Below are positions 13,716 to 45,100 of a stretch of 64,000 nt of DNA, one piece after another. Positions within the stretch are counted from its first letter, which is position 1; every line of letters starts with the position of its first letter. This stretch comes from an uncultured Poribacteria bacterium (GTDB taxonomy: Bacteria; Poribacteria; WGA-4E; WGA-3G). The stretch lies in contig OX639992.1 in NCBI GenBank assembly GCA_951828515.1, positions 3,946,217 through 4,010,216 on the forward strand, given 5' to 3'. The notes beneath the pieces were generated by a model. The model worked only from the letters and a program-made list of their open reading frames with translations, did no database searches and was not told the origin of the DNA. The translations under genes were made by a program, and so were the position numbers.

Positions 13716-14675
13716 CTAATCTACGGCAAGACTGTATACAGCGTGCCGGAAGATAACAACCTTCGCACCGTTCTCTAAAATGAGCTTAATTTCATAAGGA
13801 CTGACCCAGTCTATAATGCCACGAAAGATCTCTCCCTCTCGGAGTGTGATCTCAATTGAGGTTCCATTTTTTCGGGCGTGCTGAACGACTTCGGTATCAA
13901 TCTCAGGGGCTTGCACATCAGGCATCAGTTGTGTCAACTGCTGCGCCTTCACGGCATCATCGGTATCAACGGATGCTTGAACCCTTTCTGCGTCAACGTC
14001 TTTATAACAGTATTTAACATCTGTTTTAGCGATCTGCTGCTCGCCCTTATTACTATTGAGTGTCAAACTGGAGAGTGTCATTTCAAGGACAGTAGCAGGC
14101 AGTTGTAGCTGATTATACAACGCAAAGAACATGGATGTTTCAAAATTAATCTGCTTAAGGATATAAAGATCGCCAAAACTGAGTTGCTTTGAAGATGGGG
14201 TTTGCGCCTCTTGTGTCGGTGCTGTGGAATCCTTAATATCCATCGCCGACGGACGTGGGGTGCGTGGTAGTTTTGCCGTCGGTCCCGATGGGGATACAGA
14301 TGTATCATGGGCGCGACGATTCCGAATCGGTTTTGATGCATTGGCATCATGGTGAGAGGCGGGCATGGCATCATCACTGGCAAATTGACCTTGCCCTTGG
14401 CCCGGGAAGCCAGCGTAACCTCGCGGAATAATTGCCTTTCCTTGACGCAACCATCGGCGTTCTGTTGGGGTCAACAATACTTCGACGTTTTGGGCAACGA
14501 GTCCCTTCTCACCTTCAATAATACTGTACTTTACACGCTGTCCGACACGGAGTTCTTCGTATTCAGGCTGCTTAATAGCGGAGCTATGTAAGAAGACATC
14601 CGCGTCACTGCTATCTTGCGCTATAAATCCGAAGCCTTTATCGAAATTGTAGTACTTAATCCGTCCTGTAGGCAT
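13716..14675 (-). CDS. Cold-shock domain protein with C-terminal Hfq-like Sm domain
   Basis: 319 residues from the second of two adjacent ATGs, which has AGGAG six bases upstream. Residues 1-68 are a cold-shock domain with RNP1 KGFGFI (13-18) and RNP2 VFLH (27-30), an ssDNA/RNA-binding beta barrel. Residues ~70-165 are a low-complexity, Pro/Ser-rich linker. Residues ~165-235 form a second folded block of unknown type (LYILKQINFETSMFFALYNQ). Residues 267-319 read like Hfq: a Sm1-like stretch (TSIEITLREGEIFRGIIDW) and a Sm2-like VIFRHAVYSL, matching Hfq's YKHAIS. No separate hfq is in the window. Probably an RNA chaperone; the domain combination is unusual. CSD call firm, Sm call by eye. Confidence 0.82.
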   Translation of the reverse strand: MPTGRIKYYNFDKGFGFIAQDSSDADVFLHSSAIKQPEYEELRVGQRVKYSIIEGEKGLVAQNVEVLLTPTERRWLRQGKAIIPRGYAGFPGQGQGQFASDDAMPASHHDANASKPIRNRRAHDTSVSPSGPTAKLPRTPRPSAMDIKDSTAPTQEAQTPSSKQLSFGDLYILKQINFETSMFFALYNQLQLPATVLEMTLSSLTLNSNKGEQQIAKTDVKYCYKDVDAERVQASVDTDDAVKAQQLTQLMPDVQAPEIDTEVVQHARKNGTSIEITLREGEIFRGIIDWVSPYEIKLILENGAKVVIFRHAVYSLAVD

Positions 14676-14845
14676 CATATGCTCCTGCGGTCTTGTCCCT
14701 TTTCAGGAAGGTGACGTTAACCATTCGCGTTCCTGCGCGAGCATTCCTTATTTTCGGTTTTTCTTCACACAACAACTCGACCCTTTATCATATTCTTCAG
14801 CGTCAAAACTCCATGCTTTCGCGTGGAGATGTAGACGCGTTTTTC

Positions 14846-14874
14846 TTGAAATAAGTTGTTGAATCTGCTATAAT
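14846..14874 (+). promoter_or_regulatory. Consensus-like promoter with no gene directly behind it
   Basis: TTGAAA, 17 bases, TATAAT. The next sense gene starts 485 bases downstream. Confidence 0.7.
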
Positions 14875-14880
14875 ACTTTC

Positions 14881-15224
14881 AGAGTGTAAGGTTGCTATAG
14901 AGGCTCTGGTTACGAAGCTCTTGGTAGCGTTCCTATAGTGTAAAACTCTAAAAAACGGTTATCTATCAATAAATCGTAGCTCGACATACACAGTAGGGAA
15001 AGACGGGTAATGCTGAATCCCATTTGAAAATGTGTATCAAAATTTTTCGTAAGGACACTTTTGTGTCGCAGTCGGGATAGCGTCTGTTGCAGTAGGTTAC
15101 GTAAGTCTTTCGCTAGAAAGCAGTGGTCGTCGATCGCACGAAAGCTTCTGTAGAGACTACAACTATAGAGGCCGCGCCCTTTAGGGCGAGGTCTATCACA
15201 CAATAGAACAGACCTCATCTTTTT
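14881..15224 (+). ncRNA. Candidate non-coding RNA of about 345 nt
   Basis: Bounded by a sigma-70 promoter (14846-14874) and a terminator-like hairpin (15188-15224). No sense frame of useful length lies inside. Local hairpins: an outer pair AGAGT/ACTCT (14881-14885 with 14945-14949) enclosing two CTATAG boxes; CTTTC-GCTA-GAAAG near 15107-15120; GTAG-AGA-CTAC near 15150; CGCCC-TTTA-GGGCG near 15175-15187. tmRNA and RNase P hallmarks are missing. It could instead be a long attenuated leader of the amidohydrolase gene. A 102-codon frame on the other strand has no recognisable product. Confidence 0.45.
15188..15224 (+). terminator. Terminator-like hairpin
   Basis: GAGGTCT (15188-15194) with AGACCTC (15210-15216), loop of 15, then ATC and five T. 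Perfect 7-bp stem but a short T-run offset by three bases. Confidence 0.5.
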
Positions 15225-15358
15225 AGGATCAATGCTGTCCTATAACAGTGGAAAGAGAGGTAAGTTACCAAGACATCATATATTAAATCATAATTCGACG
15301 CATTTGTCAAGTACGAGACGATAAACAGTCCGTTTCAATTTTTTAAAGGAGCCCTTTC

Positions 15359-16648
15359 ATGGCAACTACCGATTTGACGCATCATATTCAATCTATTCGC
15401 CTTGTTGATACACACGAGCACATGAAGCGTGAAACCGAATGGGTTGAGAATGGACCCGATATCCTCCAAGACCTATTTGGAAATTATGTGCCTGCCGACT
15501 TGGTAACAGCTGGTGCCTCCCCAGAAGCGATGCGCAACCTGATGGACGCTTCTCAAGACATCGCATCTCGGTTTGAAGGCATCCGAGACGCGTGGGGAGC
15601 AACGCAGTTTACCGGGTATGGAGAGGCAGTCAGCCTCATCGCGAAGCACATCTACGGACTCGACGAACTGACGGGTGATGGACTCGCGGGTGCCGATAAT
15701 CTAAAGACGCTTCGCACGCCCGGCAAACGTTATCACATTTTACACGATCTCGCAAACCTTGATCACATTCAAACAGACGATTTCAGTTGGCAGTGCACAC
15801 CGGACACATCCGGTCCCGATTTTTTCCTCTACGATCTCTCGTGGGCGACATTCTGTAACGGACAAGTTGATCCGAGTGCTATCCACGCCGAGACAGGTGT
15901 TCAGGTCAACGACCTGGCATCACTCAAGCGGGCTATGGAGGCAATCTTTGCCAAGCATGCCCCTTGTGCGATCGCTGTAAAATCACAACACGCTTACAAC
16001 CGCACCCTCAACTGGATCGAAAGGAGCGATGCTGAGGCGTCTACTGCCCTGAATGCTGTGCTCACGAAACCTGCTGCAGAGGTTGACGAAGCGACGCGGC
16101 TCTGCCTCGGTGATTGGTGCTGGGCGCGAGGCGTTGAACACACGATTGAACACAACCTCCCGTTCAAAATTCACACCGGCTATTATGCTGGCAACGATCG
16201 GATGCCGGTGCGGCGCATCCCTGCCGGTAATATGTGTGCCCTTTTCGCTCGGTATCTCGACGCGAAGTTTGTATTGATGCACATCGCCTACCCTTATAAC
16301 GATGAACTGGTCGCACTCGCCAAGCATTATCGTAATATTTGGGTCGATTTCTGCTGGGCGTGGAGCATTGATCCTTACAGCTCGCGTGATTTCCTCCGTC
16401 GGTGCATCCATGCCGTTCCGTCAAATAAATTGTTCGCTTTCGGCGGCGATACGGGGTGGCCAACCAGTGCGATGGCGTATGCGATTCAAGCCAGAAACGA
16501 AATTCGGCGCGCACTTGAAGCCGAAATTGCGGACGGTTACCTCACGGAAAAACAGGCGATGGGGTTCGCGACCCGGATTATGCATACAAACCAGCATGAC
16601 TGTTTCGATATAAACGGCACCCGATCGAATATCGCAAAGGCAGCGTAA
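15359..16648 (+). CDS. Amidohydrolase family (uronate isomerase-like) protein
   Basis: 429 residues. TIM-barrel metal hydrolase of the amidohydrolase_2 group. The metal-binding HxH-type motif is DTHEH near residue 17; further family landmarks are PFKIHTGYY, FVLMHIAYPYNDE and the late Asp in FAFGGDTGWP. Overall layout resembles glucuronate isomerase-like amidohydrolases often annotated in environmental genomes; substrate unknown. The start has AAAGGAG nine bases upstream. The 480-base upstream region holds a promoter, a possible ncRNA and a terminator-like hairpin, so expression may be attenuated. Converges on mtnA (14-base gap). Confidence 0.85.
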   Translation: MATTDLTHHIQSIRLVDTHEHMKRETEWVENGPDILQDLFGNYVPADLVTAGASPEAMRNLMDASQDIASRFEGIRDAWGATQFTGYGEAVSLIAKHIYGLDELTGDGLAGADNLKTLRTPGKRYHILHDLANLDHIQTDDFSWQCTPDTSGPDFFLYDLSWATFCNGQVDPSAIHAETGVQVNDLASLKRAMEAIFAKHAPCAIAVKSQHAYNRTLNWIERSDAEASTALNAVLTKPAAEVDEATRLCLGDWCWARGVEHTIEHNLPFKIHTGYYAGNDRMPVRRIPAGNMCALFARYLDAKFVLMHIAYPYNDELVALAKHYRNIWVDFCWAWSIDPYSSRDFLRRCIHAVPSNKLFAFGGDTGWPTSAMAYAIQARNEIRRALEAEIADGYLTEKQAMGFATRIMHTNQHDCFDINGTRSNIAKAA

Positions 16649-44751: not shown

Positions 44752-44788
44752 AAAAAACCTTCTCGTTCCAAATATGGAGACGAGAAGG
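44752..44788 (-). terminator. T-box-controlled intrinsic terminator
   Basis: Perfect 9-bp stem CCTTCTCGT/ACGAGAAGG (44758-44766 with 44780-44788), followed on the minus strand by six T. Located directly after the T-box sequence. Confidence 0.85.
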
Positions 44789-45100
44789 ACATGTACACTG
44801 GCCTTACCGTGGTACCACTCCAATTCTCTTTCTCATTTCATTCGAGGTATTGGGCTTACAAAGCCCTTCTACAATAAGAAAGAGCACTCTTTGGGATGCG
44901 TTAACGGACATCACACCGACTAATCCTACTGATGTCCTACGGACTGTTCAGATTAGCAACTCCAGGGCGACCTTGGGTCGTAGGAACTTGAGGAGACCTT
45001 TCAGCCTATGAATCTCCTTCTCTCGCAAGCCCGGACGACTTACTCCTCCCCTTCAACGCTTTTTTGGGTAATCTATTTAATTTTTTTTAATTGTGCACGC
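44752..45100 (-). promoter_or_regulatory. T-box riboswitch of the ilvBN(C) operon
   Basis: Minus-strand leader with the T-box sequence GGAGTGGTACCACGG (the TGGTACC core at 44809-44817), which pairs with the free 3' end of uncharged tRNA. TGGT predicts discriminator A, as in tRNA-Ile. The upstream Stem I region has GGAGGAGTAAGTC, AGAGAAGG, and a helix TCCGGGC/GCCCTGGA around 45036 and 44960. AATCTGAAC on its 3' side makes AUC (Ile) the likeliest specifier, though the base after it is not a purine. The terminator at 44752-44788 completes it. The exact 5' boundary is approximate. Confidence 0.85.

Follow-up and report, generated by a model that had tools for sequence, protein, structure and literature searches.

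A protein-free IS200/IS605-type element of Candidatus Poribacteria with a structured RNA homologous to TnpB omegaRNA scaffolds

Within the window, by which we mean the whole 64,000-nucleotide stretch of DNA analyzed here, positions 14789-15199 are a 411-bp insertion into a Candidatus Poribacteria genome, recognized by comparison with empty sites in relatives. In order, the element comprises a left palindrome, a promoter, a structured non-coding RNA of about 320 nt and a right palindrome ending CTATCAC. The 3' part of the RNA is, by alignment and covariance models, homologous to the omegaRNA (reRNA) scaffold encoded by the 3' ends of two tnpB subfamilies. We think it probable that this is a non-autonomous, PATE-like satellite of the IS200/IS605 type that carries an extended TnpB omegaRNA of its own, for a resident TnpB to use in trans. 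A first-pass annotation of the same DNA had offered a new structured RNA as one idea and a likeness to IS605 right-end and omegaRNA hairpins as another. The two belong together, since the hairpin is the element's right end and the 3' part of the RNA is the omegaRNA-scaffold homologue.

The element and its insertion site

The amidohydrolase stretch next to the element is matched in 36 of the 38 genus genomes, and 24 loci of this neighborhood were read. One relative (L160) has the empty site ..CCCTTTAT|ACAATAG.., where the occupied window reads ..CCCTTTAT|C..CAC|ACAATAG... Empty sites in L159, L164, L172 and L174 read TTTATACAAT.., that in L158 reads TGTATACAATAG, and several other loci at the amidohydrolase site are more divergent, yet without the element. 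(For L175, L176 and L179-L181 the match begins within the gene, with the insertion site outside the comparison.) A second copy (L002), set against L184 and L186, gives the empty site AATTAT|GTTCAATT and the same insertion rule. The relatives' empty sites therefore fix the limits of the element (Table 1) and place it 3' of TTAT without target duplication, as IS200/IS605 'peel-and-paste' predicts; TTAT is among the left cleavage sites given for IS605-type elements (PMC9956272). The promoter-to-terminator unit of the first-pass annotation was real, and it is its boundaries that move to those of the element, whose left end lies outside the unit as drawn.

Table 1. Features of the window copy of the element
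Feature	Position	Strand	Evidence
TTAT, insertion target and presumed TAM, left flank	14785..14788	+	Empty sites of two copies
Whole element, no target duplication	14789..15199	+	Empty sites in relatives; further copies
Left-end palindrome: outer GCGTC/GACGC, inner CTCCA/TGGAG	14800..14838	+	Sequence; common to TnpB elements
Promoter TTGAAA-17-TATAAT, inside the element	14846..14874	+	Promoter scan; kept in 27/33 copies
A-type 5' RNA domain, predicted pseudoknot, start inferred from promoter	14881..14983	+	13-copy alignment, consensus fold; also outside elements
Middle RNA domain, ACATACAC..GTGTAT helix enclosing GGGA..TCCC	14984..15045	+	Alignments; B-type covariation
OmegaRNA-like 3' domain, including hairpin CAGTC-GGGATAGC-GTCTG at 15069-15086	15046..15199	+	Homology to tnpB 3' ends
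Right-end hairpin and conserved end CTATCAC (15193-15199)	15170..15199	+	Same right end in 405-aa TnpB subfamily
Terminator-like hairpin and T-run, half element, half host DNA	15188..15224	+	Fold; sequence
Host flank at guide position, ACAATAGAACAGACCTCATC	15200..15219	+	Position only; 20-nt length assumed from other TnpB systems

The right palindrome spans 15170-15193, so that subterminal palindromes stand at both ends. TTAT(C) precedes the left end in the RNA-only and TnpB elements parsed. Left end and target are common to TnpB elements: identity with five of them (L045, L046, L048-L050) is 84-89%, and L003 and L080 are nearly identical through the promoter. One locus (L023, G007) has left end and promoter without the RNA; a short ORF lies downstream, an arrangement suggestive of promoter capture.

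The insertion point is the -10 region of the ancestral promoter of the amidohydrolase gene, which reads TTGACA..TATACAAT in relatives with the empty site and has TTCACA in the window. At the corresponding place in genome G031 (L013) lies an element of the B type described below. Elements with different 5' domains thus occupy the same -10 site in G000 (window 14764-14788) and G031, and both genomes have TTCACA where empty relatives mostly have TTGACA. The neighboring gene at window 13719-14678 (- strand) encodes a protein in which a cold-shock domain is followed by a C-terminal region whose Hfq-related match, at 24.2 bits, falls short of the cut-off of 27.

There is no transposase gene in the element, and no ORF on either strand is conserved among 34 copies. 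On the + strand the RNA body has no ORF longer than 39 aa, in keeping with the earlier remark that no sense reading frame is present. An antisense ORF at 14910-15218 (102 aa) was rejected as a protein, being unconserved among the other copies. The home genome has six Y1 TnpA matches; a Y1 transposase with TTAT..CTATCAC ends was not found there.

The promoter had also been correctly noticed. It scores 11/12, with a TG ahead of the -10, and a promoter of at least 9/12 lies upstream of the RNA in 27 of 33 scored copies (34 were tried, L200 being too short), against 3.2 expected from shuffles. The GC-rich hairpin CGCCC-TTTA-GGGCG is likewise where it was said to be, at 15175-15188. The supposed terminator fared less well. 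Folding does give a hairpin, GAGGTCT/AGACCTC, pairing 15188-15194 with 15210-15216 and followed by ATCTTTTT, but a terminator scan (loops of 3-8 only) lists none at the element's 3' end. One arm of this hairpin is element and the other host flank, so it is peculiar to the window copy, and it competes with the right-end hairpin.

Domains and conservation of the RNA

In the home genus the RNA has two types of 5' domain, A (13 copies aligned) and B (9 aligned), both of which lead into the same middle and 3' domain (20 aligned). Near-identical copies and L014, L033 and L065 were left out of some alignments. RNAalifold finds changes on both sides in 14 of 69 A-type pairs, the count on which A-type covariation rests, and in 30 of 66 B-type pairs. 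For the B structure of 59 pairs, 96.2% of cells are paired and 28 pairs have changed on both sides, where the shuffle mean is 17.1; the 28 exceed all 500 shuffles and all slid controls. 'Further pair types' in the same structure show no excess over shuffles (132 of 500 reached the count). Helix X1 covaries through TAGTTG/CAACTA, TGATTG/CAATCA, TAATTG/CAATTA, TAGTTA/TAACTA and CAGTTG/CGACTG, and is fully paired in 21 of the 24 rows of an alignment that omits L204 and L206 (near-duplicates of L194 and L195).

Sister-genus copies lay outside the set from which the structure was derived. In 14 of them (L213 is omitted because it is a home-genus member) 7 of 10 helices are kept in at least 90% of cells and 3 are not. 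With L013 as reference, the cells kept are 51/107 for helix 2, 57/84 for helix 4 and 86/126 for the right end, all three in an alignment of uncertain register; with L022 as reference, helix 6 falls to 5/42. The proposal of a new structured RNA is supported by this covariation and by these underived sister-genus copies. As a single sequence the window RNA folds unexceptionally (z -1.49); it is the comparison with other copies, not the single-sequence fold, that makes the structure more than chance.

How widespread is it? BLAST finds seven further copies of the element in its own 5.85-Mb genome at 74-78% identity, and a covariance model finds ten copies in this home genome. Common to the copies are the left palindrome, the promoter, the RNA body and the right palindrome with its CTATCAC ending. 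The RNA motif matches five contig stretches, all Candidatus Poribacteria, in a search from which the records nearest the window are possibly absent. A model, R2, was made from the shared RNA domain of 20 RNA-only copies, without the pre-right-end hairpin and the right end. At E<=1e-4 it has a match in 25 of the 38 genus genomes, and 61 matches of at least 80 bits fall in 16 of them; in a phylum sample of 84 genomes and 21 genera it has matches at 1e-6 in 38 and 4, respectively. Twenty further stretches were read. The sister-genus copies have B-type 5' domains and the right end AGTATGTCAA. Two stretches from another family (L210, L211) resemble RNA-only elements whose 5' domain is of a third type, and L212 is truncated.

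Two of the checks suggested in the first-pass annotation, a comparison with related genomes and an Rfam scan, were made; the former recovered the copies and empty sites, and the latter gave no family match in the unit, which agrees with its view that hallmarks of tmRNA, RNase P RNA and 6S RNA are lacking. Across window 14680-15400 nothing credible appears at E<=10, and 20 related loci are without a match. Over the whole window the sole match at gathering score is an unrelated T-box leader at 44773-45065 (- strand, 99.8 bits). As for tRNA or tmRNA, the one call is an ARAGORN tRNA-Arg at 15698-15788 (- strand), inside the amidohydrolase gene and probably due to chance, and this candidate was rejected.

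The 5' and middle domains, some 170 nt of RNA, have no counterpart that we could see in the TnpB elements read. To our knowledge, neither domain is needed for a guide. The A-type 5' domain also occurs on its own, not as part of an element: in five genomes (L017-L021) it lies 172-175 nt ahead of a 342-aa ORF, with no element ends nearby. In L018, the one tested, this ORF is PF04018-like, resembling an undecaprenyl phosphate translocase. Another solo A-type domain, at L035 1497-1600, has a promoter-like start and is followed by a hairpin and T-run. As a structured RNA in its own right, the 5' domain lends itself to separate tests.

Homology to the TnpB omegaRNA scaffold

The home genome holds 48 matches to the TnpB zinc-ribbon family. 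A subfamily of about 405 aa (L080, L081, L083 and L096 in the home genome, others in relatives) has the same left end, TTAT and right end as the RNA-only elements, and TTAT precedes the left ends of both the 405- and the 387-type TnpB elements read. It is the 3' coding end of the 405-aa tnpB that aligns with the 3' domain of the RNA. A model of 18 such tnpB 3' ends, stripped of the last hairpin and right end (R1), matches 6 of the 20 RNA-only loci, in each case at the position expected; strong matches are those of L024 (1.7e-10), L037 (1.5e-9) and L027 (4.4e-7), and the window's own is weak (E 0.13). In the other direction, R2 gives 10 matches on 29 TnpB loci, 2 of them away from tnpB 3' ends.

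The unbiased test of homology is the genome-wide search with R2. At least 20 of its 30 matches below 80 bits lie on the 3' end of a tnpB match, mostly of a second subfamily of about 387 aa; 10 of the 30 overlap none of the tnpB matches listed, and some of these are solo or truncated copies (L144-L146). The aligned ends have in common a GGGGCATC loop on differing but pairing stems, TTGGAGTAG, a further hairpin, TTGATACCAC(A/G)AT and the right end AGTATGTCAA. RNA-only copies carry either right end, matching the two TnpB subfamilies. Sequence comparison thus points to a strong homology for the B types and, for the window copy, to one that holds mainly through the family. The element contains no tnpB, and its RNA does not overlap a tnpB gene of the same element, so we call it 'homologous to' omegaRNA and not a standard member. 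The earlier remark about IS605 right-end and omegaRNA hairpins was well founded: the right-end hairpin closes the RNA, and host flank follows directly 3', at the guide position.

Is there a nuclease to use it? The TnpB of L080 aligns with ISDra2 TnpB (8bf8) over residues 21-372 (E 6.3e-44) and, as read by eye, appears to keep the RuvC acidic residues. Full 405-type TnpB (E<1e-100) occurs, among the matches listed, in 15 of 16 RNA-bearing genomes versus 8 of 22 other genus genomes (Fisher p 5e-4, uncorrected for kinship); the 16th RNA-bearing genome, G003, has a 387-type match. The presumed TAM, TTAT, would be the same as the insertion target shared with TnpB elements. By eye, the 5' untranslated regions of tnpB in L026, L028, L045, L048, L050, L080, L081 and L083 resemble a compact pseudoknotted leader of outer stem, inner stem, hairpin and crossing stem.

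Proposed role, rival readings and known systems

In the reading we prefer, an extended TnpB omegaRNA would be the sole gene of a non-autonomous element that lives as a satellite on TnpB elements. Its insertion 3' of TTAT was presumably the work of a transposase acting in trans. The internal promoter would then drive a transcript through the 5' domain, middle domain, omegaRNA scaffold and right end and on into host DNA, and we propose that the insertion site thereby supplies the guide, from 15200 onward. Much of what would follow is modeled on ISDra2 TnpB. This nuclease binds right-end RNA of about 150 nt whose last ~16 nt are flank and cuts beside a TAM identical with the insertion target; it has been proposed to bring the element back once it has been excised (PMC8612924). 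TnpB can also trim its own mRNA 5' of the scaffold, with processed forms of 79 to 466 nt (PMC10278001). By analogy, the scaffold would be bound by a resident 405- or 387-aa TnpB, which would remove the 5' portion and cleave TTAT plus flank, which is the empty allele after excision (TTAT|ACAATAG); repair of that cut might then restore the element. In the window copy, part of the guide would be taken up in the terminator-like hairpin, which counts against the guide reading.

If the proposal is right, RNA-guided transposon retention supports satellites made of just a guide RNA and two ends, much like phage satellites. TnpB would gain a pool of guides acting in trans, maintenance of the nuclease would be linked to numerous small elements, and nature would have provided a series of long omegaRNAs. 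More tentatively, we entertain an old lineage of protein-free OMEGA satellites, whose pseudoknotted 5' domain (A, B and C types) may serve a separate function, for instance in the recruitment or control of TnpB or in signal sensing, and may have been exchanged with host leaders such as that of the undecaprenyl-phosphate translocase-like gene.

Could the element be an ordinary PATE, derived from a TnpB element by deletion and left with ends and a relic of the omegaRNA region and no RNA function? We consider this unlikely. Some PATEs do keep a tnpB 3' end (PMC7290912, PMC3119063), and decayed or truncated copies exist here too (L031, L145, L212), but the covariation, the structure conserved out of sample and the conserved promoter speak against it, as do the 5' and middle domains, which are absent from the TnpB elements read, kept in two genera and present as a variant in a second family. 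Quite improbable, in our view, is a decoy or inhibitor that binds TnpB other than as a guide and protects other copies or the host. The scaffold with its long 5' extension would suit one, and there is one system in which DNA cleavage is inhibited by part of a TnpB mRNA (PMC10278001); against this, the right end and the flank are both intact and occupy the positions expected for a guide, and the TTAT target is kept at the left.

An attenuated leader of the amidohydrolase gene, raised in the first-pass annotation, we now regard as very improbable. The element lies directly upstream, in that ancestral -10 region, with a related element at the same place in G031, and the 5' domain occurs in another gene's leader elsewhere, but relatives with the gene have the empty site and other copies sit beside unrelated genes; an incidental effect on the gene is possible given the insertion point. 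Hardly credible is a known class (IscB/HEARO omegaRNA, IStron group I intron, tmRNA, 6S or RNase P RNA): the setting is a structured RNA in IS605-type surroundings, but neither the unit nor the 20 related loci match Rfam, on which ground a group I intron or IStron was rejected, and with its promoter inside the element the RNA could hardly take an IscB-type 5' guide from the flank.

Our preferred satellite joins two known kinds, PATE and TnpB omegaRNA, in a way that the literature search did not find described; stand-alone TnpB omegaRNA elements were not recognized in the literature searched, with two key studies outside that search. Altae-Tran 2021 and Meers 2023 are said to describe stand-alone or trans-acting IscB omegaRNAs and PATE-borne omegaRNAs of Geobacillus. 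These are alike in the idea of an omegaRNA apart from its nuclease gene. With PATEs (PMC3119063, PMC7290912) the element shares IS605-like palindromic ends, the lack of a protein gene and the lack of target duplication. Unlike them it has a promoter between its ends, and its RNA is long, covaries, includes 5' and middle domains and is conserved across genera. With TnpB omegaRNA or reRNA (PMC8612924, PMC10278001) it shares a scaffold homologous to tnpB 3' ends, a right-end hairpin, a flank at the guide position and a presumed TAM equal to the insertion target. It differs in that the Poribacteria RNA overlaps no tnpB ORF, has its own promoter and carries about 170 nt of extra structured RNA.
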